Shown here in pieces: positions 22,697 through 30,238 of a DNA stretch of 64,000 nucleotides (positions are counted from its first letter, which is position 1; each line of letters begins with the position of its first letter). Both the position numbers and the translations under genes were made by a program. This DNA comes from Pseudoxanthomonas sp. PXM03. Its GTDB lineage: Bacteria > Pseudomonadota > Gammaproteobacteria > Xanthomonadales > Xanthomonadaceae. The notes under the pieces were generated by a model. The model saw only the letters and a program-made list of their open reading frames with translations, had not been told where the DNA came from and did not search any database. The DNA lies in the NCBI RefSeq assembly GCF_014852005.1, contig NZ_JACVAU010000001.1, positions 1,634,001 through 1,698,000 on the forward strand, read 5' to 3'.

Positions 22697-22843
22697 TGCC
22701 CACCTCCGGGTCCCGCATCGGGACGCGTCCGCGTGACCGGAGTGTAGTCCCGCATCGCAGTGCGGCATGAACCGCCCGGGCAGCGTTGACGCGGTCATCG
22801 TGGGGCGGCTAGCGTCATGGCCCTTCCGTCGGAGGCTTCCTGC

Positions 22844-24202
22844 ATGCGCGCTGCGATCTTCCTGCTCCTGCTGCTGGCCGGTCTGGCGTCGGCGCCCTGC
22901 GGACATGCCGCATCGATGCCGGAACAGGGACGGGACGGGGTCGGCGTGGGGGCAGTGCTGCCGCTGCGGGACCGCGTGGAGCCGGAGAACCGCATGCTCC
23001 GCGAGCGGCTCGACACCCTGCTGCCACGCTTGATGCGTGACGCCGACCTCGACATGTGGGTAGTGATCGCGCGCGAGTACGCGGAAGACCCGGTGTACTT
23101 CACGCTGGTGCCGCAGCCGGCCCACGCGGCGCGCCGGACCACGATGCTGGTGTTCCACCGGCAGCCCGATGGCAGCGTGCAGCGGCTGTCCATCAACCGG
23201 TACCCGTTCGGCGCACCCTATGAGACGGCGTGGTCCGGTGGGGACCTCGATGCGCAGTGGCATGCGCTGGGCACGCTGATCACCGCGCGCGATCCGCGCA
23301 GGATCGGCATCAACGTTTCTGGCGAGTGGGCGGTCGCCGATGGGCTGACGCATGCGCTGCACGAGCGCCTGCTGTCGGTGCTGCCGGCCGCGCTGCACGC
23401 CAGGCTCGTGCCGGCGGAGACGCTGGTGGTGCGCTGGATGGAGACCCGCACGGCGGGAGAGCTGGCCGCCTACCCGCATATCGTGTCGCTCGCACGCGGC
23501 GTCATCGCCGAGGCGTTCTCGGGCCGGGTCATCACGCCCGGTGTCACCACCACGGACGATGTGGCCTGGTACATCCGGGAGCGCTTCGAGTCGTTGGGGC
23601 TGGCGCCATGGTTCATGCCGGACGTGAACCTGCAGCGGGCGGGCACGGCGTGCGCCGACGATGCGCCGTTCTGTGGCGAAGAAGGCGTGATCCAGCCCGG
23701 CGATGTGCTGCACACCGATGTGGGGCTGTGCTACCTCAAGCTCTGCACCGATACGCAGGAAATGGCCTACGTGGCGCATGCGGGGGAAGCCGGGGCGCCC
23801 GCTGGGCTTCTTGCGGCGCTGGCACAGGGCAACCGCTGGCAGGACGCGCTGACCGGCCAGTTCGTCGCCGGCCGCACGGGCAACGAAATCCTGGCGGCGA
23901 CGCAGCGCGAGGTCGCCCGCCTGGGCCTGCGCGCAGCGACCTACTCGCATCCGGTGGGGTTCGTGGGCCACGCGCCGGGGCCGACCATCGGCATGTGGGA
24001 CAACCAGGGATCCACCGCGGGGCAGGGCGACTGGCCGCTGCATGCCGACACGGTCTACGCCATTGAGGGCAACGTGAAGGCGCGCGTCCCGGAGTGGGGC
24101 GGGCAGAACGTGCAGGTCAAGCTGGAGCAGATGGCCGTGTTCGATGGCCGGAGGGTGGTCTATCTGGCGGGGCGGCAGGTGGTCTGGCACGTGGTGCGGT
24201 GA
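22844..24202 (+). CDS. M24 family metallopeptidase (Xaa-Pro aminopeptidase-like), exported
   Basis: A 452-residue protein. Start ATG 22844 is chosen over 22817 because GGAGGCTTCC precedes it and the signal peptide (AAIFLLLLLAGLASAPCGHA) begins there. The C-terminal half has the pita-bread fold pattern with HTDVGLCY (Asp ligand), SHPVGFVGHAPGP (His ligand) and YAIEGNVKA (Glu ligand). The N-terminal half is the creatinase-like domain. Probably removes N-terminal residues next to proline from exported peptides. The conventional HTD/HxxG set is present, so it is likely active. Confidence 0.88.
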   Translation: MRAAIFLLLLLAGLASAPCGHAASMPEQGRDGVGVGAVLPLRDRVEPENRMLRERLDTLLPRLMRDADLDMWVVIAREYAEDPVYFTLVPQPAHAARRTTMLVFHRQPDGSVQRLSINRYPFGAPYETAWSGGDLDAQWHALGTLITARDPRRIGINVSGEWAVADGLTHALHERLLSVLPAALHARLVPAETLVVRWMETRTAGELAAYPHIVSLARGVIAEAFSGRVITPGVTTTDDVAWYIRERFESLGLAPWFMPDVNLQRAGTACADDAPFCGEEGVIQPGDVLHTDVGLCYLKLCTDTQEMAYVAHAGEAGAPAGLLAALAQGNRWQDALTGQFVAGRTGNEILAATQREVARLGLRAATYSHPVGFVGHAPGPTIGMWDNQGSTAGQGDWPLHADTVYAIEGNVKARVPEWGGQNVQVKLEQMAVFDGRRVVYLAGRQVVWHVVR

Positions 24203-24234
24203 CGCGCCGGACGCGCGGGCGTTAGGATGCCTGC

Positions 24235-24675
24235 ATGAGCGCCGATGCCCACCTGATCGCCTGCCCGCACTGCGCGGCGATGAACCGTGTGCCGCCGGCG
24301 CGGCTGGTCGAGACACCCAACTGCGGGCGCTGCCACCATCCCTTGTTCACCGGCCTGCCGCTGGCGCTGGGCGAGGCGGACTTCGACCGCCACGCCCTGC
24401 GCAGTACGCTGCCGTTGCTGGTGGATTTCTGGGCGCCGTGGTGCGGGCCCTGCCTGCAGATGGCTCCACACTTCCAGCAGGCGGCGGGCGTGCTGGAGCC
24501 CGCGATGCGGCTGGCCAAGGTGGACACGGAAGCCTGCCCGGGACTGGGCAACCGCTTCGGCATTCGCAGCATCCCGACGATGGTGCTGCTGCAGGGCGGC
24601 CGCGAGCTCGCCCGGCAGAGCGGGGCGATGTCGGCGGAGGCGATCGTGAGGTGGGCGCGGGGGCTGGTGGGGTGA
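24235..24675 (+). CDS. trxC: Thioredoxin 2 with N-terminal zinc ribbon
   Basis: A 146-residue protein. Residues 10-35 contain two CxxC pairs (CPHC, CGRC), the zinc-binding ribbon that distinguishes TrxC from TrxA. The active site is W69-C-G-P-C73, followed by the cis-proline loop IRSIPTM. It reduces cytoplasmic disulfides and is usually induced by oxidative stress. It is the last gene with fully host-like composition before the low-GC segment. Confidence 0.93.
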   Translation: MSADAHLIACPHCAAMNRVPPARLVETPNCGRCHHPLFTGLPLALGEADFDRHALRSTLPLLVDFWAPWCGPCLQMAPHFQQAAGVLEPAMRLAKVDTEACPGLGNRFGIRSIPTMVLLQGGRELARQSGAMSAEAIVRWARGLVG

Positions 24676-24703
24676 GACGTTTGTACCGAGCTTCGATGGG
24701 GTA

Positions 24704-24728
24704 TGGGCGCGCTGAGTCTCCGCGCCCA
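24704..24728. terminator. Stem-loop between trxC and the GNAT gene
   Basis: TGGGCGCG pairs with CGCGCCCA around a 9-base loop. No T-run follows, so it is a weak terminator candidate. It marks the transition between trxC and the lower-GC segment. Confidence 0.4.
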
Positions 24729-24745
24729 GCTGTGGATGGGTAGAA

Positions 24746-25246
24746 ATGACGGCCCCGATTCTGACCGCAGGACCGGTCCGACTGCACCCTATTTGCGTCC
24801 AGGACGAAGATCTGTATCTCCGCCTTCATGCTTCGGTTGAGACGATGCGGCATGTGTCCGCAGTGGTGGATGCGGACACTGCGCGCTTGCGCTTCAGCGC
24901 TGCATGCAGGTTGACCGAGTCCTCTGATCCAACCTATTGGATATGGAGTGTTTCCCTGTCCAACCAGGCGCGGGATGTGGGCATCGCTTCGCTTATGGCA
25001 AGCGCCTCAAGCGCCGAGGTCGGGATGATGTTGTTGCCGGAATGGCAGGGACGAGGCGTGGGAAAGCACGTGATACAGGCAATCACGGAGTACGGTTTCT
25101 GTACGCTGGGTGTCGCCCGAGTAGAGGCTCGTCAACGCGCACGGAATGTCAGATGGGAGCGATTGATGGAACGTAGTGGCTTCATGCGGGTCCAGGGAGG
25201 GATCATCTCCCAGGATTGGATTAGGTGGCGGCGCGATCGCGATTGA
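24746..25246 (+). CDS. GNAT acetyltransferase (RimJ/RimL type), first gene of the probable borosin operon
   Basis: A 166-residue N-acetyltransferase: N-terminal RimJ/RimL-like strand (LTAGPVRLHPI), acetyl-CoA loop LPEWQGRGVGKHVI, and a conserved LMERSGFMRV near the end. Its substrate is unknown. It ends 25 bases before the GTG of the methyltransferase, runs in the same direction and shares its lower GC and more relaxed codon use, unlike the flanking trxC. That makes a shared transcript likely. A tailoring role on the modified peptide (N-acetylation) is possible but only inferred; it could equally be a self-protection or unrelated enzyme. Confidence 0.82.
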   Translation: MTAPILTAGPVRLHPICVQDEDLYLRLHASVETMRHVSAVVDADTARLRFSAACRLTESSDPTYWIWSVSLSNQARDVGIASLMASASSAEVGMMLLPEWQGRGVGKHVIQAITEYGFCTLGVARVEARQRARNVRWERLMERSGFMRVQGGIISQDWIRWRRDRD

Positions 25247-25271
25247 AGATTGGAATACAGGGGATGCTGAA

Positions 25272-26051
25272 GTGAAGTCAGGCAGATTGGCGTGTGTGGG
25301 GCTTGGGATGACGATGGGGGCTCACCTGGCTCCCAGAGCGAGGAGTTTCATTGAAGAGGCGGACACGGTGTTTGTTGCTGCTTCTGATCCGCTCGTAGAA
25401 CTGTGGGTGCAGCAGATGCACGATGACGTGCGCAGCTTGCAGCCCTACTACGCCGAGGGTAAGTCCCGAAACGAATCCTACGAACAGATGGTTGATGCCA
25501 TGTTGGAGCTCGTGCGTGCAGGGCGTCGGGTCTGTGGTGCGTTTTATGGCCACCCAGGCGTTTTCGCTTGTGTCCCGCACCGCGCCATTGATCGAGCGCG
25601 CAGCGAAGGGTTCGACGCCGTCATGGAAGCAGCTGTATCGGCCGAGGACTGCCTGTACGCCGACCTGGGGATCGATCCCGGGACGTACGGTTGCCAGCAC
25701 TACGAAGCCAGCCAGTTCATGATGTACCGCCGGAAGATTGATCCGACGGCATTTCTGGTGCTTTGGCAGGTAGGGGTCGCAGGGGACTCCACGCTGTCAC
25801 GCCTAGGCACTGGCGCCGCCCATCGCAAAATCCTGCTCGAGATCCTGTCCAGCGATTACCCAAGCGATCATCTCGTTACGATGTATGAGGCCGCTACTCT
25901 GCCACTTGCTCCTCCCCGGATTGAGTCGATCCCCCTCAATGAGCTGGTTGACGCCGATTTAGGGGGCCAGACAACGTTGGTCGTTCCCCCATCCCGCCCG
26001 ATGGAGCTAAATCCCGAGGTCGCGTCCAGGCTCAAGGAGCTGGAGGCCTGA
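25272..26051 (+). CDS. Split borosin-type peptide backbone alpha-N-methyltransferase (SonM/OphMA-like)
   Basis: A 259-residue protein of the tetrapyrrole (precorrin-type) methylase fold. Seen: N-terminal glycine motif VGLGMTMG, GHPGVF (93-98), SAEDCLYADLGIDPG (123-137), YGCQHYEASQFM, and WQVGVAG in the middle. Known: these blocks, especially YGHPGVF and the SAED...ADLxxDP run, match the borosin methyltransferases OphMA (fungal, fused to its peptide) and SonM (bacterial, separate peptide), which methylate backbone amides using SAM. Y60, R66 and Y70 keep the spacing of the Tyr/Arg/Tyr catalytic residues I recall from OphMA (Tyr66, Arg72, Tyr76). Inference: it methylates the peptide encoded at 26169-26447. 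GTG start has AGGGG eight bases upstream. It has no fused core peptide, so it is the split type. Confidence 0.85.
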   Translation: MKSGRLACVGLGMTMGAHLAPRARSFIEEADTVFVAASDPLVELWVQQMHDDVRSLQPYYAEGKSRNESYEQMVDAMLELVRAGRRVCGAFYGHPGVFACVPHRAIDRARSEGFDAVMEAAVSAEDCLYADLGIDPGTYGCQHYEASQFMMYRRKIDPTAFLVLWQVGVAGDSTLSRLGTGAAHRKILLEILSSDYPSDHLVTMYEAATLPLAPPRIESIPLNELVDADLGGQTTLVVPPSRPMELNPEVASRLKELEA

Positions 26052-26057
26052 AAACGA

Positions 26058-26137
26058 TTTCAAGCCCGTAAACTTGTAGAGCGTGACTTGAAAAGAGGTT
26101 ATCTTGCGGCAATGGGTTGCCCCGCTTGGGGAGCGGG
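26058..26137 (+). promoter_or_regulatory. Leader between methyltransferase and precursor with two dyads
   Basis: TTTCAAG (26058-26064) pairs with CTTGAAA (26087-26093), and CCCGC (26121-26125) pairs with GCGGG (26133-26137), the second shortly before the precursor ribosome site. The 117-bp gap is AT-richer than its surroundings. It could hold a second promoter or a partial terminator that sets the ratio of peptide to enzyme. A loose -35/-10 pair (TTGTAG, TTATCT, 19-bp spacing) is visible but weak. Confidence 0.3.
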
Positions 26138-26168
26138 AGCTCGTCAATGCCAATTTCTAGGGGGAGTC

Positions 26169-26447
26169 GTGTCAGCAGTTATTCGTTTCATTGAATCCAT
26201 TGGTCAGAACTCGTCGGCGCGCCACATGACCGCTTCAGATTACGACGCCGCTATCAGGGCGTTGGGAATTGGGGAAGAACAGGCTGTTGCGCTGAGAGGC
26301 ATGGATAGCGCTGCAATCTCGGGCGTGCTGGGTGGTCGAAGCAAAATGATGTGCATGATCTGGGCACCGGATCAGCAGCCCAGCAAGGAAGACGATCAGC
26401 CGCTGGAAGGCGACGTACCTGAGGAAGACAACCCGGCGGAAGAGTGA
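26169..26447 (+). CDS. Probable split borosin precursor peptide (SonA-like)
   Basis: A 92-residue protein from a GTG at 26169 preceded by AGGGGGAG (short spacing). Residues 4-56 form a predicted small helical domain (VIRFIESIGQ..., then MTASDYDAAIRALGI, GEEQAVALRGMD, SAAISGVLGG) that resembles the borosin-binding leader of SonA, itself related to Nif11/LigA-like helical leaders. Residues 59-67, KMMCMIWAP, are the only hydrophobic strand-like run and are my candidate core. Residues 68-92 hold 11 acidic residues of 25 plus several prolines. It lies 117 bases after the methyltransferase. The open frame extends further 5' (TTG 26088, ATG 26112), but those parts lack a ribosome site and family resemblance. 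Which residues are methylated and where cleavage occurs cannot be read from sequence. Confidence 0.75.
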   Translation: MSAVIRFIESIGQNSSARHMTASDYDAAIRALGIGEEQAVALRGMDSAAISGVLGGRSKMMCMIWAPDQQPSKEDDQPLEGDVPEEDNPAEE

Positions 26448-26484
26448 ACTTTCGCTGGAGGCAGTAGATCAAGGGAGTAGAGCT

Positions 26485-28302
26485 ATGTCTGCGCATTGGA
26501 AGGGTTACTGGTTGCTCGGCGCTTTGGTGGCGTCGCTCTCTGTTGGCTCGGCTTATGCCGCAGGATCGCTAGACACGCTCATCGCGAAGGCTGAGGCGGC
26601 TCGCAGTTCCGATCCAAAATCCTTCCAACGAATCCTTGGGCAGCTTGAGGCGCAGGCGGAAGCTGCAGACGAGTATCAAAAGGACCGTATCGCTTATTTG
26701 AAAGCGTACGGTCTGATCTTTGAAGGCAGGGCGGAAGCCGGCATCGGAGTAGCCAAAGCCTTGGGAGAGAAGACCAAGGACTCTGAGCTAGGCTTGCGCG
26801 CAACGCTCCTTACTGTCAACGCTTATGCATTGGACAGGCAGTTTACCGAAGGCTTGCGCCAGCTCGAGAAAGCGATGCAGCAGCTCCCTGCAGTTCACTC
26901 CAGGGAGATTCGTCATCAGGGACTGGGTGTGGCGGCAGTGCTGAACCAACAGATTGGTCAATATCGGCAGGCGCTGGACTATGCTGATCGCATCCAGAAA
27001 GATTCGCCCGATGGCCGCACCCGCTGCCTGGCCTCTCAGGTACAGATTGAGAGTCGTCAGTTCCTTGGTCTTCTGTCGTCCGATGACGGTCAGATCAATG
27101 ACGAAATCGATCATTGCATTAGGCAAAAGGAGTTCGCGGCTGCGAACTTTATCCGCATTGCGCTAGCACGGAAGTGGGTGGAGGCAGGAGAAGCGGAGCG
27201 TGCGATCAATCTCATTGAGAGGCATCTCAATGAGATCGAACGAGCCAAGTATCCGCACCTGATCGCCGAGGCAAAGGCGTTTCTCGCGGAGCAGGCGTTG
27301 GAGAAAGGAGATCTTTCTGCTGCTGAGAACTACGCACGCGGGGTCCTGAGCCAGAGCGCCAGTGTTACCAGTGCGCTTCCGTTGGTTAAGGCATACAGGA
27401 CGCTTTACGATGTCGCAGAGCGCAATGGCGATATAAGAGAAGCTTTGAGTGCTTATCAGAGCTATGCCGAAGCCGACAAGGCATACCTCAACGAGGTAAA
27501 AGCCCGCGAGTTGGCCTACCAGATCGTCCGTCAGGAAACCCTGCAGAAATCCCAGCAGATCAGTGTGCTCGACCAAGAGAACCAGGTCCTGCAGCTGCAG
27601 CGCAAGGTCGATCAGCAGGCCGCGCAGAACACGCGGCTGATCGTCATCCTGCTGGTGCTGCTGGTCGCCTCCATCGGCTACTGGGCTTTCAAGATCAAGC
27701 GCGTGCAGCTGTCGCTGAAGAAGATGGCCGAAACCGACGCGCTGACCGGCATCTGCAACCGCCACCACTTCACCCTGCGCGCCGAGCGCGCGCTGGCCGA
27801 GTGCGCCCGCAATGGCGAACAGGCCGCGCTGATCATGTTCGACCTCGACCACTTCAAGAACATCAACGACCGTTTCGGCCATGGCACCGGCGACTGGGCG
27901 CTCAAGGAAGTGGCCGAAGCCAGCAAGGGCTTCTGCCGCCGCATCGACGTACTCGGCCGCCTGGGAGGCGAGGAATTCGCCATCCTCATGTACGGTTGCG
28001 ACCTGCGCGCCGCCGCCCGCGTGGCCGAAGACTGCCGCGTGCGCCTGGCGCAGATCGAGACCCGGGAGACCGGGCATGTCTTCGCCATCACAGGCAGCTT
28101 CGGCGTGACCTCCAGCATGCAGTCCGGCTACAGCCTGGCCAAGTTGCTGTCGCATGCCGACAAGCAGCTGTACCGGGCCAAGCACCTGGGCCGCAACCGC
28201 GTCTGCGTGCACGAGAACGAACAGGAAAGCGTGCGCGCCGCCGGCAGCAACGTGCTGGAACTGCCGCAGCGCGAAGGCCGCACGGAACACCTGGGCGCCT
28301 GA
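26485..28302 (+). CDS. Membrane diguanylate cyclase with exported TPR-like sensor domain; mosaic gene
   Basis: A 605-residue protein: signal sequence (GYWLLGALVASLSVGSAYA), a long helical TPR-like periplasmic region (about 30-350), a coiled-coil segment, one membrane span (about 383-402) and a C-terminal GGDEF domain with GGEEF at 494-498 and an inhibitory I-site R485-R-I-D488 exactly five residues before it. It should make cyclic di-GMP with product inhibition. The gene is compositionally split: up to about 27540 it has low GC and relaxed codons like the genes before it, after that it is strongly GC-biased. It starts 37 bases after the precursor gene with GGGAG upstream, so read-through from the borosin genes is possible. 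Confidence 0.9.
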   Translation: MSAHWKGYWLLGALVASLSVGSAYAAGSLDTLIAKAEAARSSDPKSFQRILGQLEAQAEAADEYQKDRIAYLKAYGLIFEGRAEAGIGVAKALGEKTKDSELGLRATLLTVNAYALDRQFTEGLRQLEKAMQQLPAVHSREIRHQGLGVAAVLNQQIGQYRQALDYADRIQKDSPDGRTRCLASQVQIESRQFLGLLSSDDGQINDEIDHCIRQKEFAAANFIRIALARKWVEAGEAERAINLIERHLNEIERAKYPHLIAEAKAFLAEQALEKGDLSAAENYARGVLSQSASVTSALPLVKAYRTLYDVAERNGDIREALSAYQSYAEADKAYLNEVKARELAYQIVRQETLQKSQQISVLDQENQVLQLQRKVDQQAAQNTRLIVILLVLLVASIGYWAFKIKRVQLSLKKMAETDALTGICNRHHFTLRAERALAECARNGEQAALIMFDLDHFKNINDRFGHGTGDWALKEVAEASKGFCRRIDVLGRLGGEEFAILMYGCDLRAAARVAEDCRVRLAQIETRETGHVFAITGSFGVTSSMQSGYSLAKLLSHADKQLYRAKHLGRNRVCVHENEQESVRAAGSNVLELPQREGRTEHLGA

Positions 28303-28326
28303 CGCGGCAGCGCCGCATCGCCTGGC

Positions 28327-29415
28327 TCAGCGCGTGGCGAGGGCTGGATGCGGTCCTTCGTGGATGGCCAGCTGGTTGCGCCCACTGCTCTTTGCCCGAT
28401 AGAGCGCCCGGTCGGCCGCTTCCAGCCAGGCCCGCAAGCCGCCTGCCGCAGCGTCCGCCTTCGCCAATCCCAGGCTCACCGTGTGCCGCAGGTCGGGCGC
28501 TGACTGGACCCGCAAGGCTTCTACGCCAGCCCGGATGCGCTGGGCGGCGATCTCCGCCGCCACCAGATCGGTCCCGCGCAACAGCACGGCGAACTCGTCG
28601 CCACCCAGCCGGCCCGCGCAATCCTGCGCGCGGATGCTGTGGCGGATCACGTCGGCGGTCGCGCGCAGCACGTCGTCGCCCACCGCGTGGCCGTGACGGT
28701 CGTTGATCGCCTTGAAGTGATCGATGTCGATCATCATCAGCGTGGCCGGTTCGCCCGTCGCGGCGCACTGGTCCAGCAGCAACGTGGCCTGCTCCTGCCA
28801 GTGCCGACGGCTGTCCAGCGCGGTCAACGTGTCGCGCCGGCTCAGTTCGTCCAGCAGGCGGTTCTGCCGCTTGACCTTGCGGACCAGGTGGTAGCTGGCC
28901 TGGCTGACGGCGATGGAATGGATGAGCAGCATCGGCAGGCACGCCAGCATCACCGGCATGCTGGTGACGGGACGCAATTCGAACCCCGTCACCAACCCGG
29001 CCACCAGCGCGCCGGCCAGCATCAACGGCAGCGACCAGTACCAGAGCCGATCGATGCCGGTGCTGATCTTGTCGACCGTGGCCAGTGTCACCAGCAGCAC
29101 GCTGGGCAGCAGGTTGAACGCCATCAGCGGCACCCACATGCCGGCGAGCACCGAATCGAACAGCAGGTTGCGGATCTCGCCCCGATAAGGCTTGGGATGG
29201 CACAGCGCCAGCCATAGCGCGAGTTGCGGCCAGAGTACCGCCGTGAAGGCCAGCCACGCCCACGTACCCGGGCCGGCGTTGACCTCGAGCAGGACGGTTC
29301 CCACCGGCAGCGCAGCCAGACCCATCCCCAGCATGCGAAGCCGGTAGATCCGGCGAGGCAATCGCTGGCTCTGGCGCGCCGGATCGGCGCCGGGAAGCGG
29401 TGCGGTGAACGGCAT
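28327..29415 (-). CDS. MASE2-GGDEF diguanylate cyclase
   Basis: A 362-residue membrane protein. The N-terminal half (about 20-180) has several membrane spans and the RRIYRLRMLGMGLAALP signature of the MASE2 sensor, as in E. coli DgcC/AdrA. The GGDEF domain follows, with RLGGDEFAVLL and an I-site RAQD five residues before it, so it is expected to be an active, product-inhibited cyclic di-GMP synthase. It is convergent with the preceding GGDEF gene; the two stops are 24 bases apart with no clear terminator. Confidence 0.9.
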   Translation of the reverse strand: MPFTAPLPGADPARQSQRLPRRIYRLRMLGMGLAALPVGTVLLEVNAGPGTWAWLAFTAVLWPQLALWLALCHPKPYRGEIRNLLFDSVLAGMWVPLMAFNLLPSVLLVTLATVDKISTGIDRLWYWSLPLMLAGALVAGLVTGFELRPVTSMPVMLACLPMLLIHSIAVSQASYHLVRKVKRQNRLLDELSRRDTLTALDSRRHWQEQATLLLDQCAATGEPATLMMIDIDHFKAINDRHGHAVGDDVLRATADVIRHSIRAQDCAGRLGGDEFAVLLRGTDLVAAEIAAQRIRAGVEALRVQSAPDLRHTVSLGLAKADAAAGGLRAWLEAADRALYRAKSSGRNQLAIHEGPHPALATR

Positions 29416-29593
29416 TGGCGCGTGGAGTCCCCTTGCTCGTGACGGCCATCCCCGGTGCGCCGGGGGCAGGCGGAGTGTAGGCCAAACCGTGACGCTGGGC
29501 ACGTCACGCAGCCCTGCCAACGACAGCGGCCCCGGCCGGGAAATCTTGAGGTGGTGCCGGATAATCGGGGGCCGGTTTCCGTTGCGCGCCTCG

Positions 29594-30238
29594 ATGCCTG
29601 ACTCCCCATGCCGTCCCGGTTTCCCGGACCCGCGCCTACGCGCTCGCATGGCACCGCTCGCCGCGATGGCGGGCGCGTCGCTGTTCCTGATGGTGGGCGC
29701 CGCGCTGCAGTTTCTCCGGGCTGACCTCGCTTGGCAGCAGGCCACGCTGAGCCAGTACCTGCTGGGTCCCGGCGGATTGCTGCTGCGCGTTGCCTACTGC
29801 GTGCTGGCCATCGCCATCGTGGTGCTGGCGATCGGCATCTACCGGCAGTTGTCGGCACATGCGCGCAGTGCGGCGCCGCTTCTGCTGCTCTGCACGGGCG
29901 CCGTCGCGCTGGCGGGCGTGGCGATCGGGGACTCGTGGCTGCCGTCCGTCGCGCCCGACTTCCATCGCTGGTTCCACCACACCTGCGCAATCACTGCATT
30001 CCTTTGCGTCACCAGCGGCATGGTGCTGCAGGCGTGGCGATTCCGGCTCGACGCGGCCTGGCGGCCGTACTTCCCCCTCGCGGCCGGATGGTCCCTCGGC
30101 TGCCATGCATTGCTGTGGCTGCATGCCCTGTGGGCGCCGGCCGGGCAGGGCTGGGTGCAGAAACTGCTGATCGCGCTAATCGTCACCGCCATGCTGCTCG
30201 CCGCAACATGGCTCTGGCGAACGAGCCGGGTGCGATGA
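29594..30238 (+). CDS. DUF998 family membrane protein
   Basis: A 214-residue integral membrane protein with about six hydrophobic segments (for example LFLMVGAALQFL, LAIAIVVLAIGIY, LLIALIVTAMLLAATW). The arrangement, with LSQYLLGPGG after the first span and WFHHTCAITAFL in the middle, fits the DUF998 family, whose function is unknown. Divergent from the MASE2 cyclase with about 180 bases between the starts. Confidence 0.72.
   Translation: MPDSPCRPGFPDPRLRARMAPLAAMAGASLFLMVGAALQFLRADLAWQQATLSQYLLGPGGLLLRVAYCVLAIAIVVLAIGIYRQLSAHARSAAPLLLLCTGAVALAGVAIGDSWLPSVAPDFHRWFHHTCAITAFLCVTSGMVLQAWRFRLDAAWRPYFPLAAGWSLGCHALLWLHALWAPAGQGWVQKLLIALIVTAMLLAATWLWRTSRVR

Follow-up and report, generated by a model that had tools for sequence, protein, structure and literature searches.

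A split-borosin pair in an exchangeable block with a TPR-GGDEF gene: a proposed peptide signal and its receptor in Pseudoxanthomonas

Introduction

The closest described relative of the locus considered here is SonM/SonA of Shewanella oneidensis, in which the methyltransferase SonM acts on the precursor SonA; the purpose of the product is not given in the available portion of PMC8429565. According to that portion, SonA comprises a five-helix leader (residues 1-53), a linker (54-61), and a core (62-71) in which L63 and I65 are methylated. Mutation of SonM Y58, R67, or Y71 lowers catalysis, and mutation of Y93 raises the KM for SAM (PMC8429565, same portion). The terms 'GGDEF' and 'diguanylate' are absent from the main text of the SonM/SonA paper. 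A GGDEF domain is named, without a function, in the Figure 1 legend on borosin types in PMC11395268, as far as the accessible part of that source goes; some link between GGDEF domains and borosins is therefore already in print. A TPR domain is known to control a diguanylate cyclase in another setting: in Vibrio vulnificus, the TPR domain of RcbB represses the diguanylate cyclase activity of the same protein, and RcbA relieves the repression (PMC12282931, accessible part).

Here, we consider a window of 64,000 nucleotides from Pseudoxanthomonas sp. PXM03 (contig NZ_JACVAU010000001.1, positions 1,634,001 to 1,698,000); all coordinates below are those of the window. An original prediction had proposed that 25272..26447 encodes a split borosin pair, a backbone N-methyltransferase and a separate precursor. 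In sequence, gene order, catalytic residues, and the predicted fold of the leader, the pair resembles SonM/SonA; this supports that interpretation and places the pair with the split borosins. What makes the locus interesting lies beyond the enzyme-precursor pair: a receptor-like TPR-GGDEF gene follows it, and the block is exchanged as a whole. We propose, with a probability of roughly 0.6, that the split-borosin pair travels in an exchangeable block together with the TPR half of this protein, and that the methylated core is the predicted ligand of the TPR-GGDEF protein and thereby sets c-di-GMP.

Loci compared and their distribution

Methyltransferase homologues (E <= 1e-25) occur in at least 144 of 299 genomes of the order, in 9 of 369 genomes of a class sample, and in 15 of 398 genomes of a phylum sample. 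SonM is matched in 83 of 97 genomes of its own genus. For comparison, 103 stretches were taken (L034-L072 and L080-L143); L087 lacks a methyltransferase, which leaves 102 loci. These consist of 39 loci from a search of 61 genomes (all matches), 44 hand-picked loci of the order, selected for spread among the matches listed, and 19 loci from outside the order. There are thus 83 in-order loci, and some genomes give two.

The methyltransferase

The methyltransferase frame (25272..26051, plus strand, GTG start, 259 aa) and the peptide frame (26169..26447, plus strand, GTG start, 92 aa) both lie where they were predicted, and the former contains the motifs claimed for it, GHPGVF, SAEDCLYADLGIDPG, and Tyr60/Arg66/Tyr70. 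In a phmmer search of PDB sequences, this predicted split-borosin alpha-N-methyltransferase matches SonM at E 4.8e-74 (121 identical residues among 251 aligned) and OphMA at about 1e-45, whereas the best non-borosin methylase reaches just 0.026. Such a match is far from anything expected by chance and, judged by sequence, the discrete methyltransferase is a clear homologue of SonM and OphMA. The predicted catalytic residues are in place as well: Tyr60, Arg66, and Tyr70 map to Tyr58, Arg67, and Tyr71 of SonM, and Tyr92 is the counterpart of Tyr93, the SAM-site tyrosine. Each of the four is conserved in 101 of 102 loci, the exception, by reading, being L080. At third codon positions, the methyltransferase frame has a GC content of 0.66, versus 0.84-0.92 in several adjoining genes, as would be expected if the block was acquired.

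The precursor peptide

The original prediction described the peptide as a helical leader, a short hydrophobic run, and an acidic tail, and this description holds. The alignment with SonA is gap-free over residues 1-66, yet weak by sequence (E 0.78). An AlphaFold2 model (mean pLDDT 74.7) has helices at residues 3-13, 15-19, 22-31, 36-43, and 47-53, followed by disorder; the leader (residues 1-55, 26169..26333, plus strand) is thus a predicted five-helix borosin binding domain. When the model is compared with the PDB by Foldseek, the 11 top matches are all chains of SonM-SonA entries, the best being SonA (E 0.19 to 3.0; TM 0.62-0.75, normalised on target length). In the ungapped SonA register, the core region KMMCMIWAPDQQP occupies residues 59-71 (26343..26381, plus strand), and the acidic tail follows at residues 72-92 (26382..26444, plus strand). 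Most in-order precursors also end in acidic tails. By analogy with SonA, backbone N-methylation of the core would be expected, and M63 and W65, which align with L63 and I65 of SonA, would probably be the methylated residues.

The window precursor matches no Pfam or NCBIfam family at E 0.01, and a protein database yields six relatives at E <= 0.01, its own entry among them. Pfam LigA is matched by 7 of 65 precursor relatives, which agrees with the homology to a dioxygenase cap that the available portion of PMC8429565 reports. In 90 of 102 loci, an HMM detects a precursor beside the methyltransferase, although a few matches are weak. For six TPR domains that lack an HMM match immediately upstream, inspection by eye shows a precursor-like ORF at that position (those of L093, L130, and L143, both of L127, and the second of L131). 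Some methyltransferases have several precursor matches nearby, three each in L100 and L142 and two each in L105, L106, and L116, and the precursors differ.

The TPR-GGDEF protein and its association with the pair

The next gene after the precursor, outside 25272..26447, encodes a TPR-TM-GGDEF protein of 605 aa (26485..28302, plus strand), the proposed receptor. Behind a signal-peptide-like N-terminus lies a TPR domain that is predicted to be periplasmic (residues 26-385, 26560..27639, plus strand), and the protein is predicted to be membrane-bound. The GGDEF domain (residues 415-572, 27727..28200, plus strand; Pfam GGDEF 3.9e-41) carries GGEEF, and an intact G[GS][DE]EF is present in 88 of 89 TPR-GGDEF frames. 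The TPR domain matches no Pfam family at E 0.01, and Pfam TPR_12 is matched by 46 of 77 of its relatives. Its TPR fold is predicted. The pheromone receptors Rap and NprR occupy rows 3-11 of one match ranking; Foldseek's own ranking places LGN first and Rap twelfth, TPR arrays being similar to one another.

Of the 102 loci, 92 have a related TPR domain encoded on the same strand as the methyltransferase, and this holds for 80 of the 83 in-order loci. Among these 92 frames, 88 have a signal-peptide-like N-terminus and all have a TM-like segment; 89 carry GGDEF, and in three a histidine kinase and receiver domains take its place (L081 and L097 by Pfam, L098 by reading). A same-strand GGDEF lies within 4 kb of the methyltransferase in 92 of 102 loci and in 82 of 83 in-order loci, where L092 is counted through another GGDEF gene, its own TPR-GGDEF gene being on the opposite strand. 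Among the 102 loci, a TPR match is absent from L068 and L128, both of which have GGDEF, and from L080, L083-L086, L099, and L125. Outside the order, 9 of 19 loci have no same-strand GGDEF within 4 kb, and six of these nine (L080, L083-L086, and L099) also have no TPR match.

The association exceeds what the abundance of GGDEF domains would give. The genome of the window has 32 GGDEF domains in 4.03 Mb (the range over 13 genomes is 9 to 36), so that about 0.035 are expected per random place on one strand within 4 kb. Around the in-order loci, GGDEF density is fourfold higher within 4 kb (108 in 723 kb, a count that takes in the MASE2-GGDEF neighbours) than beyond (16 in 423 kb). The TPR domain itself (E <= 1e-10) occurs in 33 of 61 genomes, all 33 of which have the methyltransferase, and in none of the 25 genomes without it; three genomes with the methyltransferase have no TPR match (G018, G025, and G044). 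The arrangement extends to the genus of SonM. In G1120, whose SonM is 100% identical, a TPR-GGDEF frame opens directly past the SonA stop (Pfam GGDEF 1.3e-38). Precursor and TPR domain are present in 75 of 75 loci of that genus (72 chosen from SonM matches plus L091, L094, and L095) and GGDEF in 74; L222 stops at the contig end. A second locus type in the same genus (L157-L160, four loci) has all the parts as well.

Other neighbours are less constant. The GNAT acetyltransferase (24746..25246, plus strand; Pfam Acetyltransf_3 5.6e-18) is an optional member, which 39 of the 83 in-order loci have close to the methyltransferase and on its strand. Neither trx2 (24235-24675) nor the MASE2-GGDEF gene (28327-29745, minus strand) is retained as a cassette member, because among 39 loci they stand at their window positions only in those of the same genus. 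The M24 peptidase gene (22817-24202) is likewise dropped: it is found in a few same-genus loci and once in another family (L068), at a different position. A promoter scan found none, Rfam gave no match at gathering score, and a terminator scan found 4 versus 2.8 expected.

The exchange block

The acetyltransferase, methyltransferase, precursor, and TPR domain together form a block (24680..27640, plus strand) that is divergent between close relatives, while its flanks are conserved. In comparison with L041 and L044, identity over 40 bp is 90-100% up to 24,679 and falls to 28-57% just inside the block; at the other end, it is 78-92% over 27,480-27,639 and 95-100% from 27,640. In 250-bp windows, identity to the same two loci is 44-72% in the block and 89-98% from 23,023 to 24,500 and from 27,523 to 29,500; overall, the flanks are about 87-98% identical. 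The left edge lies 5 bp past the trx2 stop. The right edge falls within a gene, at residue 385 of the TPR-GGDEF protein, which is the start of the transmembrane helix. L035, L051, and L053 also lose identity at this position, between flanks that are less conserved, and L035 has the block type of the window (methyltransferase.83, TPR domain.87, precursor.85) with a different GNAT (.45).

The same pattern is seen across 14 syntenic same-genus loci, picked for retaining trx2 and MASE2-GGDEF as flanks. Median pairwise identity is.89 for TRX2,.34 for GNAT,.70 for the methyltransferase,.38 for the precursor,.47 for the TPR domain,.93 for GGDEF, and.81 for MASE2. The output half stays constant whereas precursor and TPR domain change in step, so that lineages would carry mutually specific, pherotype-like signal types. 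No part of the block varies more than GNAT, which is dissimilar even in L034 and L035, two loci of otherwise shared block type; it is possible that it serves as a second specificity element or as a peptide-capping enzyme.

Covariation of core and TPR domain

Partial Mantel tests, which judge related sequences leniently, were used to relate the precursor, divided at its core, to the TPR domain. Among the 14 syntenic loci, core and TPR domain covary when leader and methyltransferase are controlled (r.48, p.0002); the corresponding values are -.06 for leader-TPR given core and methyltransferase,.05 for leader-methyltransferase, and.01 for core-methyltransferase. A wider set comprises the 52 of 83 in-order loci with one downstream TPR domain and one precursor match at E < 1e-6, the other 31 being dropped. 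Here, core-TPR given leader and methyltransferase is.56 (p.0005), or.35 with GGDEF also controlled; leader-TPR is.34, leader-methyltransferase.39, and core-methyltransferase -.04, and under all controls core-GGDEF still gives r.15 (p.001). With look-alike TPR domains removed, core-TPR is.60 (p.0013, 8 loci) and.50 (p.0003, 41 loci). In the genus of SonM, 68 of 75 loci were used, four being dropped for want of a single precursor match or GGDEF and three as near-identical; core-TPR is.39 (p.0005), core-methyltransferase -.12, leader-TPR.55, and leader-methyltransferase.32. Among 518 pairs with comparable methyltransferase divergence, raw correlations are.73 for core-GGDEF,.70 for core-TPR, and.46 for leader-TPR; the first being as high as the second counts against the idea that the core follows the receptor. 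Mapping by part reveals no clear hotspot for the core association along the TPR domain.

The core-TPR link is seen in two groups and the leader contrast is confined to the syntenic loci; shared descent is partly removed. A clean double dissociation, in which the core goes with the TPR domain and the leader with the methyltransferase, was considered and abandoned: leader-methyltransferase covariation is near zero at the syntenic loci and the leader tracks the TPR domain in the wider sets, so that the core-TPR link alone is claimed.

It could be argued that the covariation reflects linkage only, the block being an old, fast-evolving recombination tract in which the core is not what the TPR domain recognises. 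Four genes do lie within one 3-kb tract flanked by conserved sequence, GNAT and methyltransferase also covary (r.65), and the leader-TPR and core-GGDEF correlations of the larger sets point the same way; the former is what linkage and shared descent would give. Leader and core, however, belong to one gene, and linkage by itself would not readily account for a leader-TPR value that is null at the syntenic loci where the core-TPR value is not. Individual comparisons also speak against linkage alone. Among L041, L043, L044, and L051, cores are 0.92-1.00 identical at TPR identities of 0.89-0.99, whereas leaders are 0.69-0.75 in five of six comparisons and 0.95 in the sixth; L138 and L140 differ in the reverse manner, with TPR domain 0.79, leader 0.86, and core 0.47. 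On balance, we consider linkage alone improbable as the explanation.

Duplicated pairs and unusual loci

Precursor and TPR domain also keep together in their arrangement. For 94 of 108 TPR domains, a precursor match ends <=450 bp upstream. In L048, L052, L107, L110, and L133, one methyltransferase is followed by two precursor-TPR pairs, and in genome G056 a TPR-GGDEF gene that lies 88 kb away from the methyltransferase is accompanied by a precursor of its own (E 1e-16; L087). For the second TPR domain of L042, L046, L047, L134, and L135, no precursor was detected.

Several loci depart from the common plan. L125, which is in the order but has neither GGDEF nor TPR, contains a precursor-like ORF in which core-like segments are repeated (SCLVFTPEE, YFCWVATPEEE, YFCAVNTPELE, and YFCGVLTPEEL), together with a C39 peptidase-ABC exporter; these features lie between a point about 430 bp before the methyltransferase start and one 3.25 kb beyond it, and L125 perhaps encodes an exported multi-core borosin product. 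L083 and L084 have diverged methyltransferases (35-36%), each followed by an ORF that resembles a membrane transporter by eye. In L099, the methyltransferase occupies an early part of a 1174-aa frame whose long C-terminal part is repetitive. Apparent fusions of methyltransferase and precursor in long frames of L027, L028, and L033 were discarded, as the methyltransferase sits in another frame.

These arrangements bear on whether the locus simply makes an ordinary borosin product under the control of a TPR diguanylate cyclase that sits in the cluster and responds to some other cue. RiPP clusters often contain regulators, and loci that look like product clusters do exist, L125 with its repeated cores and exporter and without TPR-GGDEF being an example. 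A regulator that responds to another cue, however, should not covary with the core, and the duplication of precursor-TPR pairs behind one methyltransferase is unexpected. Moreover, no exporter recurs in the neighbourhood clusters of 39 loci. We therefore give this explanation a small, though real, chance.

In L069, L070, and L072, TPR domain, GGDEF, and methyltransferase form one polypeptide, with a SonA-like precursor upstream (Pfam for L069). The fusion of the methyltransferase behind GGDEF would suit an arrangement in which the precursor or the methyltransferase is an intracellular partner that switches the diguanylate cyclase and no peptide is released, and RcbA, which relieves TPR repression of RcbB in Vibrio, offers a parallel (PMC12282931, accessible part). 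It is the TPR domain, though, and not GGDEF that follows the core, and the signal-peptide-like N-terminus and TM-like segment described above would set the TPR domain across the membrane from the cytoplasmic enzymes. An intracellular partner thus appears highly improbable.

Proposed mechanism

Since core and TPR domain vary together in one block, the methylated peptide is likely the signal and the membrane protein likely its receptor. Based on what is known of SonM/SonA, the methyltransferase would dock the helical leader and methylate amide nitrogens of the core, probably at M63 and W65. Some peptidase would then free a short hydrophobic N-methylated peptide, which GNAT might, speculatively, acetylate. 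The peptide would reach the periplasm or neighbouring cells by some route, perhaps aided by its N-methylation, and would bind in the groove of the periplasmic TPR domain, and binding would in turn alter GGDEF activity. Release, passage across the inner membrane, binding, and c-di-GMP output are all steps that we infer for this peptide system. Several observations count against the proposal: the cassette has no exporter or peptidase member that could carry the peptide over the inner membrane or free it, the leader-TPR and core-GGDEF correlations described above exist in the larger sets, TPR arrays are alike in fold, and some loci outside the order have neither a same-strand GGDEF nor a TPR match.

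A broader reading, which we regard as an even bet, is that the split borosins of these gammaproteobacteria are a Gram-negative peptide-pheromone system, in which a ribosomal peptide with backbone N-methylation is sensed by a periplasmic TPR receptor with an interchangeable output, its mutually specific types diversified by exchange of the block with precursor and sensor, and that SonM/SonA is the first half of such a system. The output would be either c-di-GMP synthesis or a phosphorelay, and the split borosins of this group would not be weapons. If the conserved TPR-GGDEF gene does encode the receptor, a laboratory strain could be used to test what this RiPP class is for. If the proposal is true, Gram-negative bacteria gain a form of modified-peptide signalling coupled to c-di-GMP, and the core-receptor pairs of dozens of genomes are a ready set for specificity studies.

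Comparison with known systems

The enzyme-precursor pair is a further split borosin, and a signalling role with an exchangeable sensor is the proposed new part. Borosin types V-X are reportedly defined in Imani 2022. No open-access paper was found that holds both 'borosin' and 'diguanylate', and the receptor idea was not found in print there. In the accessible part of PMC11395268, GGDEF is common to the figure legend on published borosin types and to the GGDEF-methyltransferase fusions of L069, L070, and L072; core-TPR covariation was not found in that part.

With SonM/SonA, a type IV split borosin, the window locus shares a homologous methyltransferase, the catalytic residues, and a predicted five-helix leader, and SonM/SonA also precedes a TPR-GGDEF gene directly (G1120). 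The two differ in core sequence, in the long acidic tail, and in the GNAT gene upstream in the window. RcbAB resembles the proposed receptor in that a TPR domain controls a diguanylate cyclase (PMC12282931, accessible part). The partner there is a TPR protein, not a peptide, and 'methyltransferase' does not occur in the main text of PMC12282931.

The likeness to RRNPP systems such as Rap and NprR lies in a propeptide gene that adjoins a TPR receptor gene (PMC10075063, accessible part), an adjacency seen here for 94 of 108 TPR domains, and in a predicted receptor fold near those of Rap and NprR. RRNPP receptors, as described in that part of PMC10075063, are intracellular and belong to Firmicutes, whereas the receptor proposed here is predicted to be membrane-bound and periplasmic, pairs with a RiPP precursor, and has either GGDEF or a histidine kinase as output. 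Because the receptor is predicted to have a signal-peptide-like N-terminus and a TM segment, the window system is not filed as RRNPP but is set beside it.
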